From Suttonella sp. R2A3 (GTDB taxonomy: Bacteria; Pseudomonadota; Gammaproteobacteria; Cardiobacteriales; Cardiobacteriaceae), in NCBI RefSeq assembly GCF_021513215.1, contig NZ_CP090975.1:179501-243500 (forward strand): a stretch of 64,000 nucleotides of DNA. Direction: 5' to 3'. A program made the translations under genes and the position numbers. The notes beneath the pieces were generated by a model. It worked only from the letters and a program-made list of their open reading frames with translations, was not told the origin of the DNA and did not search any database. This document shows positions 40,829 to 47,881 of the stretch, piece by piece; positions within the stretch are counted from its first letter, which is position 1; each line of letters opens with the position of its first letter.

Positions 40829-40835
40829 CGCCGCC

Positions 40836-41170
40836 GAGTTCGCCAGGCAATCGCTGATGCGTTAAGCATTGGAGGAAAGTCCGGGCTCTATAGGGCGAAG
40901 TGCCGGGTAACACCCGGGCAGCGAGAGCTGATGGAAAGTGCCACAGAAAATATACCGCCTGCAAGGGTAAGGGTGAAATGGTGCGGTAAGAGCGCACCGC
41001 GCTTGTGGTAACACAAGTGGCAGGGTAAACCCCACTTAGAGCAAGACCAAATAGGGAATCGATGCGGCGGCCCGTCGTGATTCCGGGTAGGTTGCTAGAG
41101 GTAGCAGGTAACTGCTATCGCAGATGAATGATTGTCCACGACAGAACCCGGCTTATCGGCGAACTCAACT
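40836..41170 (+). ncRNA. rnpB: RNase P RNA (bacterial class A)
   Basis: The catalytic RNA that removes 5' leaders from tRNA precursors. The conserved core GGAGGAAAGTCCGGGCTC lies at about 40871-40890, then GTAAGGGTGAAA, GGTAAGAGCGCACCGCG, CAAATAGGG and ATGAATGATTGTCCACGACA near 41124-41143. Helix P1 closes with GAGTTCGCC (40836-40844) and GGCGAACTC (41158-41166). The 3' end is set at or a few bases after 41166; tRNA-Arg begins at 41171 with no terminator between. Confidence 0.96.
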
Positions 41171-41247
<77 letters not shown>

Positions 41248-41360
41248 TATATTATTTTCTTTATCTTTCAGAACCCCTTTATTATTTATTAAAATCAGCT
41301 TATTAGTAAGCTTCTAGCCTTCTTGTCCCTTCTTGGGGTATGATGCAATTACATTAAATG

Positions 41361-41382
41361 TGTGGGTAAAAATGTGGGTAAA
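41361..41382 (+). promoter_or_regulatory. Integrase arm-type sites, left arm
   Basis: Two direct copies of TGTGGGTAAA (41361-41370 and 41373-41382), 12 bp apart, lie between attL and int. The same decamer recurs only near attR, which is the pattern expected of integrase arm sites. Confidence 0.6.
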
Positions 41383-41449
41383 TTTAAATAACCCCTTTTT
41401 TATAGAGTACAAAAACTCACCACAAGAATTGTTTGCATGAGGCGTTAAT

Positions 41450-42652
41450 ATGGCAGGTAAGCTTTCAGATAGATTTTGCAAAACCGTTGCTGAGCTTGGC
41501 AAGTATGCCGATGGTGGGGGTTTGTCTTTTCGTGTGACAAAATCGGGCAAGTATTGGCAGGGGCGGTATCGCTTTGATGGAAAGGCTAAAACTGCATCAT
41601 ATGGCGTTTACCCACAAGTTAGCTTAGTAGAAGCTAGGGCAGCGCATGCAGCACTTAAACTTAAGCTGGCCGATGGTATTGACCCGATGGCCGAGAAGAA
41701 GCAGGCGAAGAAAGAAAAAGAGATTGAAGAAAAAGCCGCTTTTGATAAATTCGCGCTTGATTGGGTGGCTGTCACCAGTGAAACAAAGGGGTGGAGTAAG
41801 AAACATATCAAAATAATAAATGGATTTTTAAATCTCTATATCTTGCCTGCCTTTGGTGCTTCAGATATTCGGGAAATTTATGCGCCTGAGATTGTGAGAT
41901 TCGCACAAGGACTTGAGAAGCAAGGCAAGCATGAAACAGCGCGTAAATGCCTTAGAACCGTTACTCGCATCTTAACTTATGCGGTAGTGCTTGGCATCAG
42001 AGAAAGCAATCCAGCAGTAGGCTTGCATGGTGTGCTATCTAAGCATGATGCTGAAAATATGCGGCATGAGATAACCCCTGATGGAATAGGTCGAGTGTTG
42101 CTTGCGCTTGAGCGTGCAGAAACCACACTACCAGCGGTAAGAGCGTTTATTAAGTTGCAGCCTATGTTATTCACTAGGCCATCAGAGCTTCGCACGATGC
42201 GCTGGGATGAATTGAACTTAGAAGAAGCGCTGCTGCAGAAATCCGCTGATGCTATGAAAACAAGGCGTGAACATCTTGTGCCATTACCCAAGCAAGCATT
42301 AGCGATTATTGAAGAGATGAAGCAGCACACTGGGCATTGTGAATATGTATTAGCTAACACAAGGACTGGGAAGCCCATCAGTGAAGGCGCTGCGCACCGC
42401 TTGAAAATCAGGAATGGATTGCACGATGTAATCACGTGGCATGGATGGCGACACACAGCAAGTACTTTGCTTAATGAGCAAGGCTACAATGCTGACCATA
42501 TCGAGATGCAGTTGGCGCATGTGAGCGGAGGCACACGTGCTGTTTACAATAAAGCACGATACCTTGAGCCAAGGCGCGAGATGATGCAGGAATGGGCTGA
42601 TTACCTTGATGGATTGTTAGCGCAAGCGAAAGAAGCAGAAAAGCACAGTTAA
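41450..42652 (+). CDS. int: P4-type tyrosine integrase
   Basis: A 400-residue tyrosine recombinase with an N-terminal DUF4102-like arm domain (LSDRFCKTVAELGKYADGGGLSFRVTKSGKYWQGRYR), a SAM-like core-binding domain (about 100-200) and a catalytic domain with Arg243 (TRPSELRTM), His331-Arg334 (HGWRHTAS), His357 and the nucleophile Tyr366 (AVYNKARY). All five are present, so it should be active. GAGG precedes the ATG. It would catalyse integration and excision between the tRNA-Arg att sites. Confidence 0.95.
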   Translation: MAGKLSDRFCKTVAELGKYADGGGLSFRVTKSGKYWQGRYRFDGKAKTASYGVYPQVSLVEARAAHAALKLKLADGIDPMAEKKQAKKEKEIEEKAAFDKFALDWVAVTSETKGWSKKHIKIINGFLNLYILPAFGASDIREIYAPEIVRFAQGLEKQGKHETARKCLRTVTRILTYAVVLGIRESNPAVGLHGVLSKHDAENMRHEITPDGIGRVLLALERAETTLPAVRAFIKLQPMLFTRPSELRTMRWDELNLEEALLQKSADAMKTRREHLVPLPKQALAIIEEMKQHTGHCEYVLANTRTGKPISEGAAHRLKIRNGLHDVITWHGWRHTASTLLNEQGYNADHIEMQLAHVSGGTRAVYNKARYLEPRREMMQEWADYLDGLLAQAKEAEKHS

Positions 42653-42753
42653 GTTGATTAATGATTTTGGTTATGCCTAGCCTGACGGGGCGAAAGTGGA
42701 CACCCTATCCATTGGCATAATCATCTTTTTAGGGTTTCGCTGTGGGGGCGATT

Positions 42754-43572
42754 ATGGATATTATTTCAAAAGCTAAAGAATGGGTAACTCTAAATGAAGC
42801 GGCATCTATATTGTCGCGAGAGCTTAAGCAAGATATAAGTATCGGGGATATATATCACTTGGCCTTTAATAAAAGGTTAAATTTATCTTTCATTACTACA
42901 TCAACAACAGTGGGTTGTATAGTTTATGAAAAACAAGCAGATGAGATTTTTCAGGTGTATAAGGAGATTGTTAATAAACACACGCCTAAAGACGATAAGT
43001 CTCTATTTGAAAAATTAATAGAATCTGATTTGGCTTTTACAATTTTACCGACAGAAGATGCTTTGTATAAACCAGTGGGTCGCTCATTATTGGAAGCTGG
43101 CCGACCGTATTATTTAGCAATGATTGGTAATGAGAGATTGGATATAGAAAACTCTTTTTATCAGGAAGTAAAAATCCAGTCCCCTGAGTATATAAATATT
43201 GATGGTTTTTTTATAAAAGATGGACAAAAGATATTGTCTGTTAAAGAGAAACTTAATGGAGAAGATATACCAGCTTCTGGAATTGATAGTATGGAGTATG
43301 CAAGCTATGTATGTACGATTGAATCAATCGAAAGTTTTTTAGCATCGTATTCAACAAAGAAAGAAAATACAGATATACACCCTCGCGAAGAAGCGTCCTT
43401 ATTACTAATCCTTGCGGCAGTTTGTAAGATGAATCCTTTTAACCCATCAGAGCGAGGCAGGGCAAAAGGTGTCAGAATTGAGCTACAACAACTGGGCATA
43501 GATATGAGCGAAGATACAATCAGGAAATACTTAAAACAAATTGGTGATGTGTTGGACAGAAGAAAAACCTAA
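42754..43572 (+). CDS. Unknown AT-rich accessory gene of the element
   Basis: A 272-residue protein I cannot assign. The N-terminal part (WVTLNEAASILSRELKQD, then ISIGDIYHLAFNKRLNL) looks like a helix-turn-helix or MerR-type DNA-binding motif. The C-terminal 60 residues (EEASLLLILAAVCKMNPFNPSER, then GIDMSEDTIRKYLKQI) look like a second helical DNA-binding or oligomerisation domain. It has no signal peptide or membrane span. Codon use is visibly more A/T-rich than the rest of the element. I prefer the ATG at 42754, with GGGGG upstream, over the GTG at 42742. It may be cargo or a regulator. Confidence 0.72.
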   Translation: MDIISKAKEWVTLNEAASILSRELKQDISIGDIYHLAFNKRLNLSFITTSTTVGCIVYEKQADEIFQVYKEIVNKHTPKDDKSLFEKLIESDLAFTILPTEDALYKPVGRSLLEAGRPYYLAMIGNERLDIENSFYQEVKIQSPEYINIDGFFIKDGQKILSVKEKLNGEDIPASGIDSMEYASYVCTIESIESFLASYSTKKENTDIHPREEASLLLILAAVCKMNPFNPSERGRAKGVRIELQQLGIDMSEDTIRKYLKQIGDVLDRRKT

Positions 43573-43597
43573 TTAGGAAACCCAAAACCTAATTAGG
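43564..43597 (+). promoter_or_regulatory. Paired palindromic operators upstream of the alpA-like gene
   Basis: Two direct copies of AAAACCTAATTAGG (43564-43577, 43584-43597), each containing the perfect palindrome CCTAATTAGG, are 20 bp apart, two helical turns. The first overlaps the stop codon of the unknown gene. They probably bind a dimeric regulator controlling the alpA-primase-helicase transcript. Confidence 0.6.
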
Positions 43598-43672
43598 CTT
43601 TACTTAATCTATTAACCCTACGATACCCCTTAGCACATAGTGGCTGCTTCGTTAGTTAATAGAGGACTTAAT

Positions 43673-43903
43673 ATGTCTACACCGAAAAAACCGCAAGATA
43701 TTAATTATCGCGGATTACCTGATAACGCCAATTTGCGCATGCGTGATGTGGTGATTTTAACCAGCCTTTCAGAGGCGACCATTCGCAGGCTGATGAAAGC
43801 GGATAAATTCCCAAAACCGAGAAGCTACCCACATACACGTGGGATGTTTTGGACTGCAGGTGAATTGTTTGCTTGGCTTGATGAAAGCATGGGGGTTGCG
43901 TAA
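43673..43903 (+). CDS. AlpA-like excisionase / transcriptional regulator
   Basis: A 76-residue winged helix-turn-helix protein: LRMRDVVILTSLSEATIRRLMKADKFPKPRSY is the AlpA/MerR-like DNA-binding motif, and FWTAGELFAWLDE is the typical C-terminus. AlpA proteins activate int or act as excisionase in P4-like elements. The start is the ATG 43673, with AGAGGA upstream, rather than 43640. The stop overlaps the next ATG by 1 nt (TAATG). Confidence 0.88.
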   Translation: MSTPKKPQDINYRGLPDNANLRMRDVVILTSLSEATIRRLMKADKFPKPRSYPHTRGMFWTAGELFAWLDESMGVA

Positions 43904-44280
43904 TGAAAAAGGCAGCTACCCCAATACAAGATAGCCGCCCAACTGCTTCAGGGTATATCTTACCAAAAAAACTTCAGTCAGTTATAGCTGAATTGTTGGC
44001 GCGATTGCTAGAAGGTCAAACATTAAGCCAGCATGATGCTACTAAGATTCTGAGTACTACACGCTTAAGTGCTTATATCTATGAGTTACGGCATACCTAT
44101 GGCTGGGATATTGAAACATTGGATGAAACAGCGCCATGTGCTGATGGGCGCACTGCAAGCTATGGCCGTTATCGGTTGATACCTAGTGAGCTTTACAAGC
44201 TTTCTACTGAAGAGCGTGAAAAATGGATTGAAGCAGTTTATCAAGCGCGCTTAATATTGCGTGAAGGCGGTGCAGCATGA
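43903..44280 (+). CDS. Small winged-helix-like protein of the replication module
   Basis: A 125-residue protein with a winged-helix pattern: LLEGQTLSQHDATKILSTTRLSAYIYELRHTYGWDIET (about 36-75), then a beta hairpin with YGRYRL. Helix-turn-helix proteins of this size are usual next to phage or satellite primases. It is coupled to AlpA (TAATG) and to the primase gene (ATGA). Confidence 0.72.
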   Translation: MKKAATPIQDSRPTASGYILPKKLQSVIAELLARLLEGQTLSQHDATKILSTTRLSAYIYELRHTYGWDIETLDETAPCADGRTASYGRYRLIPSELYKLSTEEREKWIEAVYQARLILREGGAA

Positions 44281-45185
44281 GTATCTATTCTGATGCGCTA
44301 AGCTTTATTGATCCGAACATGCCGAGGAATGATTGGGTTGGCGTTTTGGCAGCATGTAAAACTGCTGGGATTGCGTTTGATGATGTGGTGGCTTGGTGTG
44401 AACCAGCCGCCAATTTTGAGAGCGTGAAGGATGTGCGCAGCGCTTGGAATAGCATTACTGATGGTATCGTCCCTGATGGGTATCTAATCAAGTTAGCGCG
44501 TGAAAATGGTTACTCATCGGCCAGCGCACCAATAGCAAAACAGCGTAGAAAGCCACCAGAGCTGATTAAAGACGATATAGCTACCATTCAGCGCATACTT
44601 GGTAAAACCGCTTCATTTGGCGATACAGTGCGTTTTATAGCAAGCTATCTGTATAACAGGGGCTTGGATTTGTCACCGCCTGCGATTTTGCGAGCTGCTG
44701 AGCTTGATTATTGGCATGATGGGCGGATGGTCGGGCGATTTGATTGTATGGTCGCACCGATAACTATGGGCGCTGAATTGCGTGGGTTGCACTTAACTTA
44801 TCTTAGTGGAGGCCGCAAGCTGCAAGGCTACCCTGCAAAGAAAATGCGTACTCGCTATTCAGGCGCGATTAGTGGTGCAGCAGTACAGCTATATAAACCA
44901 AGCGAATATCTAGCAATTGCTGAAGGCATAGAAACAGCATTAGCAGTGCGACAGATAACAGGCTTGCCAGTGTGGGCTTGCTTGAGCGCAGGCGGCATGG
45001 AAAAAATCATACTGCCACCAATTAAGAAGCTATGTATCTTTGCTGATAATGATGATGCAGGCATACAAGCCAGTGAGCGATTAAAAGCGCGTGCTATCAA
45101 GCAGGGCATGAGCTGCGAAATAGCTATACCTGAGCAATCAGGCGCTGATTGGCTTGATGTATTGCGAGGTGGTGACAATGAGTGA
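44277..45185 (+). CDS. Toprim-domain primase of the element
   Basis: A 302-residue protein. The N-terminal part (NDWVGVLAACKTAG, DVRSAWNSI) looks like a PriCT-type domain, the middle is DUF7146-like (RFIASYLYNRGLDLS), and the C-terminus is a Toprim domain with AIAEGIETALAV (Glu216, Glu219) and IFADNDDAG (Asp257, Asp259). It lacks a separate zinc finger. Together with the DUF927 helicase it would form a split primase-helicase, replacing the single alpha protein of phage P4. It overlaps both neighbours. Confidence 0.88.
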   Translation: MSIYSDALSFIDPNMPRNDWVGVLAACKTAGIAFDDVVAWCEPAANFESVKDVRSAWNSITDGIVPDGYLIKLARENGYSSASAPIAKQRRKPPELIKDDIATIQRILGKTASFGDTVRFIASYLYNRGLDLSPPAILRAAELDYWHDGRMVGRFDCMVAPITMGAELRGLHLTYLSGGRKLQGYPAKKMRTRYSGAISGAAVQLYKPSEYLAIAEGIETALAVRQITGLPVWACLSAGGMEKIILPPIKKLCIFADNDDAGIQASERLKARAIKQGMSCEIAIPEQSGADWLDVLRGGDNE

Positions 45186-46854
45186 AATTGAAGCATTGGA
45201 AAAGCTAGGGATTAATCTTACCGAAGTAACTAATCAACAATTCACCGTTACCGATGAAGGCATTTTTCACAATGGCAGCAGCTCAGAGAAGATTTGCGAT
45301 TACTTCACCGTTGAAGGTGATGCTATTGATGATAATGGCGTGCGTTATTACATATTGAAAGCCGATAATAAGCTGTTTGCTTTGGCTTGGGCTGATTTGG
45401 GCGATAACCAAGGATGGAAAGTGATGCGCGGTGTTATTCGTGGCATACCACCCGATACAAGGCGCAAAAATAAGCTGGTGGAGTTTATACAAACACGCGA
45501 TATATTAAAGCGGTGGGCGTTGACTGATACAGCAGGTTGGCATGGTGATGCTTATATTTTGCCGAGCGGTGAAATCATTGGTGAAGCGGATGGCGTTTTA
45601 TTTCAGAGGCCGCAAAAAATCAGCGCGTATGGTGTCGCTGGTACTCTTGAGGATTGGCAGCAGCACCTTGGGCGCTATATCGTAGGTAATAGCCGTTTTT
45701 GTTTGATGATGGGCGCAGCGTTTGCTGCCCCAATGATTGAATGGTTTGGTATCGAGGGTGGCATTTTACATTTGTATGGAAGCAGCTCAGGCGGCAAAAC
45801 CACCGCTCAACGATTAGCACAATCGGTATGGGGGCATGGCATACATTCTTGTGAAACTTGGAATGGCACAGGTTATGCGTTGACCAATACAGCAGCAGCC
45901 AGGAACAACGGCCTGCTATCTCTTGATGAGATTGGACAGGATGAGCGAGGCAATGCTGCTACTCAATGTACATACAGCATCAGCAACGGCAAAGGCAAGA
46001 TACAAGGCGCTAAAGATGGTGGTAATCGTCCCGAATTGCGCTTTTGTGTCTTGGGGGTATCATCAGGCGAGATAACCTTGGATGAGCACTTAGCGCGGCA
46101 TGGCAAACAAGCTATGGCTGGCCAGTTGGTGCGTTGCCCTTCAATCAGTCATGAGCTTGAAGCTGCGCATGGATTTGAGAGCATGAAAGCGTTTACCGAC
46201 CATATCAATGATGCAGTTACTCGCTATTATGGCGAAGCAGGGCGCGTATTTATCGCTGAGATTGTTAAAGATAAGGCAGCAGCTAAAGAGCGCGCTAAAG
46301 AGCTATACCAGCGCTTTCTTGATGAGCTAATAAGCAATCATGCCATGGGTAAGCAGCAAAGCAGGGCGGCAAGATTATTTGCAGCTGCTTATGTTGGTTT
46401 AATCATGGCGAAGCAATACGGCATTATCGGTATCGATGAAAGCGATGCGCGAGAAGGTGTTAATGCTTGCTTGATTGATTGGCTAGAGAAGCAGCCACAA
46501 GGACTGTATGAAGATGAGCGCATTAAAGAAAACGCGATTGATACCATGCCGACACTGCAGCCGCAATTTGTGAGCATAATTGCAGAAGGCACAAACCATG
46601 TATTCAGTGGTGATTATGTTGGTTTTGTCGCTGATGATGGCGAGGGGAAAATCTATGATGTATTGCCTGCCATGTTCAAAAAGTACTTTGCTTTAGGTGA
46701 CAATGCCGCTGCGATGAATCGAGCTACCCAAGTACTGGGTAACGATATGGGATGGTTAAACAAGCCGAAAGGCAAGGGCTGGCAACATGTACGTAGATTC
46801 AATGGCGAATCAATAAAGGTATATCGCTTTCGAGGGATAGCTCCACCTGAGTAA
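45178..46854 (+). CDS. DUF927 domain helicase/ATPase of the element
   Basis: A 558-residue P-loop ATPase. The N-terminal 130 residues are beta-rich; the DUF927 core contains Walker A YGSSSGGKTTAQRLA, Walker B LLSLDEIGQ, and the conserved QCTYSISNGKGKIQGAKDGG. Such proteins act as replicative helicases in mobile elements. I take the ATG at 45178 (MSEIEALEKL), with GAGGTGGT upstream, rather than 45154. It overlaps the primase by 8 nt and ends 25 nt before a terminator. Confidence 0.9.
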   Translation: MSEIEALEKLGINLTEVTNQQFTVTDEGIFHNGSSSEKICDYFTVEGDAIDDNGVRYYILKADNKLFALAWADLGDNQGWKVMRGVIRGIPPDTRRKNKLVEFIQTRDILKRWALTDTAGWHGDAYILPSGEIIGEADGVLFQRPQKISAYGVAGTLEDWQQHLGRYIVGNSRFCLMMGAAFAAPMIEWFGIEGGILHLYGSSSGGKTTAQRLAQSVWGHGIHSCETWNGTGYALTNTAAARNNGLLSLDEIGQDERGNAATQCTYSISNGKGKIQGAKDGGNRPELRFCVLGVSSGEITLDEHLARHGKQAMAGQLVRCPSISHELEAAHGFESMKAFTDHINDAVTRYYGEAGRVFIAEIVKDKAAAKERAKELYQRFLDELISNHAMGKQQSRAARLFAAAYVGLIMAKQYGIIGIDESDAREGVNACLIDWLEKQPQGLYEDERIKENAIDTMPTLQPQFVSIIAEGTNHVFSGDYVGFVADDGEGKIYDVLPAMFKKYFALGDNAAAMNRATQVLGNDMGWLNKPKGKGWQHVRRFNGESIKVYRFRGIAPPE

Positions 46855-46878
46855 TAAACCATCAGGACACAAACAAGC

Positions 46879-46901
46879 CCACCCGATGCGGTGGTTTTTT
46901 T
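46879..46901 (+). terminator. Terminator after the DUF927 helicase gene
   Basis: A short stem (CCACC 46879-46883, loop CGATGC, GGTGG 46890-46894) followed by seven T. It closes the replication operon. Confidence 0.75.
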
Positions 46902-46973
46902 ATCAGCTAAAAAAACGAGCGACCGAAGGAGCGACCACTCGCGAGCACAAGTACATAGAAAATGGAGATTATT

Positions 46974-47033
46974 ATGAAACGTGCTCTTTACTTGAGTATA
47001 TGCCTATTTATGAAGAAATCAAGAAAAAGGTAG
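46974..47033 (+). CDS. Possible 19-residue leader ORF before the iterons
   Basis: ATG at 46974 with GGAG 6 nt upstream, then a basic-hydrophobic-basic peptide (MKRALYLSICLF, ending KKSRKR). Its stop lies in the first iteron. It could be a real small peptide or chance; only the Shine-Dalgarno supports it. Confidence 0.2.
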   Translation: MKRALYLSICLFMKKSRKR

Positions 47034-47252
47034 TAACAGTAGTAACACCCTAGTAAACACTGGGTTTTAGGTGGTAACTTAGGTAGTAACTTGGTAGTAA
47101 CTGGGTAGTAACTATATCTATTAAAATTGATGGTTACCAATGCGGTTACTACTAGGGTTACTACCACGGCAAAGAAAAACCGCTTATAAATCAATGCGGT
47201 TACTACCGTTACTACCGTTACTACCGTTACTACCGTTACTACCGTTACTACC
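47029..47252. repeat. Two-armed iteron array, candidate replication origin of the element
   Basis: The left arm has GGTAGTAAC at 47029, 47082, 47093 and 47104 (last three at 11-bp period) with variants at 47038 and 47070. The right arm has the complement GTTACTACC: a variant at 47145, one copy at 47157, then six perfect tandem copies at 47199-47252 (9-bp period). The arms face each other across an AT-rich centre (47113-47144). A 15-bp repeat CAATGCGGTTACTAC occurs at 47138 and 47192. Position after the primase-helicase genes suggests an origin. The 46855-47324 gap otherwise holds only the terminator, a GAGCGACC pair at 46917 and 46929, and the small ORF. Confidence 0.75.
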
Positions 47253-47324
47253 TATTTTTGCGTTATAAATACAATCAGCGATTTAAAACTTACCCCATGC
47301 AATCATTTACAAGGAGAACTTAAA

Positions 47325-47537
47325 ATGAAAAACATTAATGACACAATCGACAACCTAGACAGATTCACATCACAAGCGCAAGCCGCTATCGTTTGCTTGT
47401 CAGCTGATAACAATTTCGAACAGCTATCAGCGGAGATAGTCGCCGATGCGCTATGGAACATTGAAGACCGCTTAGCCGATATTAAGCGAGAGATTAGAGC
47501 GTTAACGGAAACCAAAACCGAACACCCGCAAATGTAA
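47325..47537 (+). CDS. Small unknown protein of the element
   Basis: A 70-residue, all-helical, acidic protein (MKNINDTIDNLDRFTSQAQA at the start, EDRLADIKREIRAL near the end). AGGAGAAC lies 5-6 nt before the ATG, which makes it a likely real gene. No family recognised; similar small helical ORFs occur in satellites and prophages. Confidence 0.65.
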   Translation: MKNINDTIDNLDRFTSQAQAAIVCLSADNNFEQLSAEIVADALWNIEDRLADIKREIRALTETKTEHPQM

Positions 47538-47865
47538 ATAATGTTAGTTATCAATAACTTACAACATACATACGCGCAACCTGAACACCTAACCGAACAC
47601 TAGGGGGTAAATGTTCGGGCGCTTCACCCTGAAGACCGAAACACAGATAACAAAGCAATCGCTAATCCAGTTTTTACCAGTTAATAGTAATCATTATCAG
47701 TACATTTTATGCGGTAAGTGGTGAATTGTTGCAATGTCTTAGCGATGGTAAATCGGCTTTTAATTGTTTGCTGAATTGCAAAATGTGGGTAAAAAAGTGG
47801 GTAAATAATTTTACCCACAATAATAAACTCAATATAAACAAATGGTTAAATATATAGTTTGATTT
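47538..47865. other. Non-coding right end of the element
   Basis: Contains a near-palindrome at 47546-47559 (AGTTAT, CA, ATAACT), a 7-bp stem-loop (CCGAACA 47593-47599, TGTTCGG 47612-47618) without a T-run, and then the arm-type repeats leading to attR. I see no gene in it. Confidence 0.5.
47784..47819. promoter_or_regulatory. Integrase arm-type sites, right arm
   Basis: TGTGGGTAAA at 47784-47793, a one-mismatch copy at 47796-47805 (same 12-bp period as on the left), and an inverted copy TTTACCCACA at 47810-47819. They lie 47-82 bp inside attR. Confidence 0.6.
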
Positions 47866-47881
47866 CTGCCGAGGACACCAT
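47866..47881 (+). other. attR core
   Basis: The second copy of CTGCCGAGGACACCAT. It is preceded by element sequence, not by tRNA, so only the left copy makes a working tRNA. The next chromosomal gene ends 10 bp away. Confidence 0.88.

Follow-up and report, generated by a model that had tools for sequence, protein, structure and literature searches.

A 6,633-bp unit integrated at tRNA-Arg(CCT) in the genome of Suttonella sp. R2A3 (family Cardiobacteriaceae) is very probably a minimal phage satellite of the Gram-negative phage-inducible chromosomal island (PICI) type. It lies within a 64,000-nt stretch of the single 1.99-Mb contig NZ_CP090975.1 (positions 179,501 to 243,500, forward strand), hereafter called the window, and all positions given below for the element are those of the window. 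The element is near-minimal and looks intact; the PICI group itself is already known. Its most interesting part is an RNA leader that follows the integrase gene and belongs to the Rfam family int-alpA (RF02996).

Boundaries and gene content of the element

The left end of the unit is the 3′ end of the tRNA-Arg(CCT) gene and the right end is an exact 16-bp repeat, CTGCCGAGGACACCAT, confirming the direct repeat that had been proposed to bound a 6.6-kb element in this tRNA gene (the original prediction). The two copies are 6,633 bp apart and form the core of a longer direct repeat (25 bp overall, 88% identity). The element starts inside the 3′ end of the tRNA gene, which the repeat restores. Doubled arm-type repeats with the layout GTGGGTAAA-NNN-GTGGGTAAA lie inside both ends; measured from the att core, their positions are about +132 and −79. 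HE-PICIs carry a doubled motif of different sequence at −81 ± 2 and +132 ± 2 (PMC10111431), and the shared repeats of other elements with an int-alpA RNA and defined ends are mostly found at +109 to +158 and −60 to −97.

Between the att repeats are six larger open reading frames (ORFs), all on the same strand, in the order int-orf-AlpA-HTH-primase-helicase-ori (Table 1). The integrase, AlpA-like regulator, Toprim primase, DUF927 helicase and iteron array recognised in the original prediction are all present, with intact ORFs, while the int-alpA RNA, a 272-aa ORF (orf272), the winged-helix-turn-helix (HTH) gene and the doubled arm repeats had been overlooked. Fourteen GGTAGTAAC sites (at most one mismatch) are clustered after the helicase gene, compared with a mean of 1.4 per shuffled element, and this two-arm array is the predicted origin of replication.

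Gene content and order equal the Gram-negative PICI plan (PMC6092414, PMC10111431), which supports the PICI-type reading. As in PICIs of the EcCICFT073 type (PMC6092414), there is an integrase with its own specific att site, AlpA, a pri(-rep) module and, after it, an origin in which an AT-rich region separates two sets of iterons, and a unidirectional gene order with no lytic or tail genes. The Suttonella element differs in its size (6.6 kb), in having neither a Bro zone nor a late zone, in its separate primase and helicase, and in the absence of any recognised packaging or interference gene. The split primase/helicase and two-arm origin had been thought unusual, and this holds against P4, but both are documented features of PICIs, in which the primase and initiator are ‘sometimes fused’ (Fillol-Salom 2018, PMC6092414) and origins ‘always’ have an AT-rich region with a set of iterons on each side (PMC6092414).

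Several points weigh against this assignment. The element falls under the 10–20 kb usual for Gram-negative PICIs, although such a size is typical of the group and does not define it (PMC10111431). No packaging signal, terminase small subunit (TerS) or capsid-redirecting gene was found in the element, and no clean empty tRNA-Arg(CCT) site was obtained among the relatives examined, because downstream genes and synteny differ in them. For the Suttonella copy we infer excision, the circle, replication and transfer. Pfam and PHROG family scans of the element gave no match to capsid, portal, terminase or lysis families, in agreement with the earlier observation that packaging and structural genes are not visible, so packaging by a phage would be required. 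The description of an integrated, self-replicating, satellite-like element that is moved by something else is well supported.

Table 1. Features of the Suttonella element and its left flank (window positions)
Feature	Position	Strand	Basis or remarks
rnpB (RNase P RNA, class A), chromosomal flank	40835..41171	+	RF00010, 330 bits
tRNA-Arg(CCT), integration target	41171..41247	+	ARAGORN; RF00005
attL	41224..41248 (16-bp exact core 41233-41248)	+	direct repeat, CTGCCGAGGACACCAT
Doubled arm-type repeat (GTGGGTAAA x2), centre ~132 bp inside attL	41361..41383	+	repeat search
Tyrosine integrase, 400 aa	41450..42652	+	Pfam Arm-DNA-bind_3, Phage_int_M, Phage_integrase; PHROG
int-alpA RNA	42670..42734	+	RF02996; outer stem and two hairpins; hairpin-2 loop CCCUA is the complement of the 3′ tail, UAGGG
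Hairpin with orf272 Shine-Dalgarno in loop	42737..42751	+	UCGCU-GUGGG-GGCGA
orf272, 272 aa, first gene after RNA, low GC (32-36%)	42754..43572	+	alternative GTG start 42742
CCTAATTAGG palindrome, two perfect copies 20 bp apart, before alpA	43568..43597	+	
AlpA-family regulator/excisionase, 76 aa	43673..43903	+	PF05930, 1.5e-8
Winged-helix protein (HTH_39), 125 aa	43903..44280	+	PF14090, 2.8e-8; 49% to G006 sibling
Toprim primase, 302 aa	44277..45185	+	PriCT_2, DUF7146, Toprim_3; phrog_510
DUF927 (MCM-like AAA+) replicative helicase/initiator, 558 aa	45178..46854	+	PF06048, 3e-46; phrog_1139
Intrinsic terminator (stem then T run), closing gene block	46879..46894	+	
Predicted origin	47029..47252	.	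GGTAGTAAC iterons: six + (47029-47112), AT-rich middle (47114-47141), eight - (47145-47252)
Small ORF, 70 aa, unassigned	47325..47537	+	ORF list
Doubled arm-type repeat (GTGGGTAAA x2 and one inverted copy), centre ~79 bp inside attR	47784..47818	+	
attR	47857..47881 (16-bp exact core 47866-47881)	+	direct repeat, CTGCCGAGGACACCAT

Related satellites and the host family

The closest experimentally studied relative is phiAH14b of Pseudomonas sp. ANT_H14 (KU708005). It and the Suttonella element both have the order int-orf-AlpA followed by a separate Toprim primase and DUF927 helicase on one strand, with bidirectional iterons after the helicase gene and no structural, terminase or lysis genes, and their integrases share 35% identity. 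At 16.8 kb, phiAH14b is larger, with a C4 antisense RNA, a Rha-like regulator, many extra genes and a known helper, and it has no int-alpA RNA at the gathering score. Its DNA was found packaged in capsids of the proposed helper, phiAH14a (PMC4936722). The split Toprim/DUF927 pair also occurs in vB_Pae_U10, with short repeats after the helicase gene, and two-orientation iteron clusters following a DUF927 gene are found in phiAH14b, a Klebsiella capsid-forming PICI (cfPICI), a P4-like element and a 7-kb Salmonella element.

The Klebsiella cfPICI (NZ_CP069874.1) has an int-alpA RNA directly after int, AlpA, a DUF927 helicase (29.5%) and the two-orientation iterons, but its 15,995-bp circle carries capsid, portal, connector and terminase genes after DUF927, a module of its own that the Suttonella element lacks. 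The int-alpA RNA of the corresponding cfPICI region in PQ569648 scores 63.6 bits. That accession (PQ569648.1, locus L029), Klebsiella phage P12620-1, is a 106.5-kb ‘phage’ record holding the cfPICI-like region (int, int-alpA RNA, DUF927); either a chimeric assembly or integration of a satellite might explain it.

Vibrio satellites of the PICMI type show that int, alpA and a primase on about 6 kb are enough for a working satellite (PMC10803314). The Suttonella element shares this size and core and, like PICMIs, has no capsid-remodelling genes, but it is not a PICMI because its primase and integration site differ: PICMIs target fis and encode a DUF3987/DUF5906 primase, with no DUF927 helicase in the model (PMC10803314), whereas the Suttonella element has Toprim_3 and DUF927 proteins at tRNA-Arg(CCT). 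P4 has in common with it a tRNA target and a P4-type integrase, and the alpha gene of a P4-like locus (L117) encodes Toprim and DUF927 in one protein. The fused alpha, sid/psu/delta and the C4/CI immunity RNA of P4 are absent from the Suttonella element, in which family and Rfam scans detected neither sid/psu/delta families nor a C4 RNA.

Beside the tRNA-Arg(CCT) genes of relatives with longer flanks, no match to int, AlpA, primase or helicase was found, so the element is not core, and the possibility raised earlier that its genes are core in all relatives did not hold. The rnpB-tRNA-Arg(CCT) linkage is conserved in nearly all of the family, and in Suttonella the last base of rnpB is the first base of the tRNA gene. 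Relatives of the helicase (44–46%) occur in Dichelobacter and Cardiobacterium beside P4-type integrases, at loci with a C4 antisense RNA instead of the int-alpA RNA. In Dichelobacter nodosus (L002 and L004), three to four near-tandem copies of the C4 antisense RNA are packed into about 1.4 kb just upstream of the DUF927 helicase gene. Searches of genome contigs gave matches only in Dichelobacter and Cardiobacterium; among viral contigs, a single-protein search found no match and a profile search found only matches of 22–29%.

A sibling element is present at tRNA-Cys in the genome of another Cardiobacteriaceae genus (G006, contig 3, locus L129). Its integrase (54%), AlpA (45%), winged-helix protein (49%) and primase (41%) are related to those of the Suttonella element. 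Both an int-alpA RNA and a C4 RNA are present in it, as are additional genes of the Bro zone, and its helicase gene is broken. The presence of related elements at different tRNA sites within one family indicates past mobility.

The int-alpA RNA and its class of elements

The RNA between int and orf272 scores 48.3 bits, compared with a gathering score of 35.8, and is most likely a cis leader. A search of 369 gammaproteobacterial genomes located the family in 39, and 14 control genomes yielded none; 34 RNA loci were read individually (labels of the type L106 denote loci). Their layout is shared: int is followed, at some loci, by one or two small genes, then come the RNA and a variable ORF, and AlpA and the replication genes, where these could be recognised, stand last. 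Where att repeats are clear, the elements measure about 5.7–12 kb, and their targets are many different tRNAs. At L087, L088, L106 and L112 the small genes between int and the RNA, some of them toxin-antitoxin-like, suggest a second cargo slot.

The position of the RNA is fixed relative to its neighbours. At 29 of 35 loci an ORF of at least 80 aa starts 4–30 nt after it, as against 20% of random positions, and at 28 of 35 it is preceded within 25 nt by a stop codon (background, 10%). The proteins encoded after the RNA have a mean column identity of 9%, cannot be aligned, and are nearly without known domains. They do not represent known defence genes, since just 1 of 34 gave a (weak) PADLOC match. 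Nor is the RNA an intrinsic terminator, the linker after the stem being merely pyrimidine-rich in many copies.

Inspection by eye showed that the hairpin-2 loop matches both the RNA's own 3′ tail and the Shine-Dalgarno (SD) sequence of the next gene, with covariation among loci (CUCUCAC/GUGAGAG in L106, UCGUA/UACGA in L105, GCCUUA/UAAGGC in L066). Partners were then dealt among loci in 1000 shuffles of non-redundant copies. Loop-tail pairing was 13.6 against 10.1 ± 0.45 for shuffled partners (n = 21 copies) and loop-SD pairing was 16.0 against 13.35 ± 0.66 (n = 16), the observed value being reached in 0/1000 shuffles in both cases; these counts are not probabilities because the RNA sequences are related by descent. 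Two control regions were null (in 392/1000 and 491/1000 shuffles the observed value was reached). Covariation is also seen between the two arms of the SD hairpin. The pairing hypothesis was formed on the set that was tested, and the only independent check is the G006 copy, which was read afterwards and fits (loop CCCAA, tail UUGGG, SD hairpin AACGC-UUGGGAG-GCGUU). The Suttonella copy folds into the predicted form, with an unexceptional fold energy and a loop-SD match among the weaker ones.

Covariation of the loop with both tail and SD, across 43 copies, suggests a cis translational switch: the loop would pair either with its own tail or with the SD of the next gene, making translation of orf272 switchable. 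A broader reading has about an even chance of being right: such a switch would mark a broad satellite branch, in which the loop chooses between a 3′ pseudoknot and the SD of the first variable-zone gene, a slot occupied by mutually unalignable genes, and of which the Suttonella element is near the smallest self-replicating form.

A trans-acting small RNA (sRNA), present at this position by chance, is a rather unlikely alternative to the leader. It would agree with the Rfam classification of int-alpA RNA (‘Gene; sRNA’), which counts against a leader, and with the loop, since CCUUC-like loops are typical of sRNAs that pair with SD sequences. It does not explain the fixed position relative to the preceding stop codon and following ORF start, nor the covariation, which links the loop to the adjacent SD and tail and not to the negative-control regions. 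A cis-encoded sRNA acting on the same mRNA is possible. In the literature searched, int-alpA RNA is mentioned only in a survey.

Homologues of orf272 adjoin AlpA at L126, L127 and L128, and since they occupy the equivalent slot, orf272 was rejected as random cargo. It had no Pfam, PADLOC or plasmid match, and an AlphaFold model from the single sequence had a mean pLDDT of 40, too low to be of use; the N-terminus of orf272 appears HTH-like. The CCTAATTAGG palindrome pair before alpA is a candidate operator. A promoter scan of the element performed no better than on shuffled sequence.

Several members of the class carry a lone packaging or tail gene. A TerS gene with no large subunit lies within the att repeats at L101 (8290-8748) and L106 (3048-3545), and another without a nearby large subunit at L085 (8091-8438), where the element ends are undefined; the three belong to different families. 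Lone tape-measure genes (TMP_2, TMP_3), with no other tail genes, lie within the att repeats at L090 (7626-10052) and L104 (6214-8262; an att repeat of just 15 bp). These genes point to phage exploitation, and the tape measure perhaps commandeers helper tail assembly.

Alternatives, life cycle and significance

The element could instead be what is left of a larger PICI- or P4-like satellite, decayed and immobile after loss of its late zone. That would account for the lack of late genes and a size below that of typical PICIs, and the G006 sibling, with its extra Bro-zone genes and broken helicase, would fit such a history. Such decay is improbable, as the six larger ORFs, both att sites, both sets of arm repeats, the origin and the leader are all intact, and a functional satellite of 6.1 kb is known (PICMI115, PMC10803314). 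Even less probable, to a marked degree, is a plasmid-like island or integrative mobilizable element that a conjugative helper transfers. It would suit the self-replication module, but family scans matched no relaxase or oriT-processing gene in the element, class members carry phage genes (TerS, tape measure, capsid) and not transfer genes, and it was in capsids that phiAH14b was found.

For a PICI-type satellite, the following life cycle is envisaged. Integrase and AlpA, the latter as excisionase and activator, would recombine attL with attR, releasing a 6,633-bp circle and leaving the tRNA-Arg gene restored; self-activation of AlpA is presumed from named relatives. The DUF927 helicase would bind both iteron arms, open the AT-rich middle and replicate the circle together with the Toprim primase. 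The hairpin-2 loop could pair with its own 3′ tail as a pseudoknot or with the orf272 SD in its hairpin loop, acting as a translation switch. A phage would package the DNA; concatemers of phage length, as in PICMIs and EcCICFT073, are the simplest form this could take. Family searches of the host genome, with two terminase (TerL) families, detected no helper prophage, and the only other tyrosine recombinases of the host are of XerC/XerD size. The helper therefore probably enters by infection, which is more likely than a resident prophage of another type.

With these results the range of PICI-type satellites takes in a Cardiobacteriaceae genome, and the near-minimal form found there is useful for asking which functions satellites need. 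The lone TerS and tape-measure genes of related elements suggest different routes of stealing from phage. An Rfam RNA without prior explanation is tied to satellites, providing a short DNA marker that requires no gene calling, and the proposed RNA switch is a specific, testable model of how satellite early genes may be held off.

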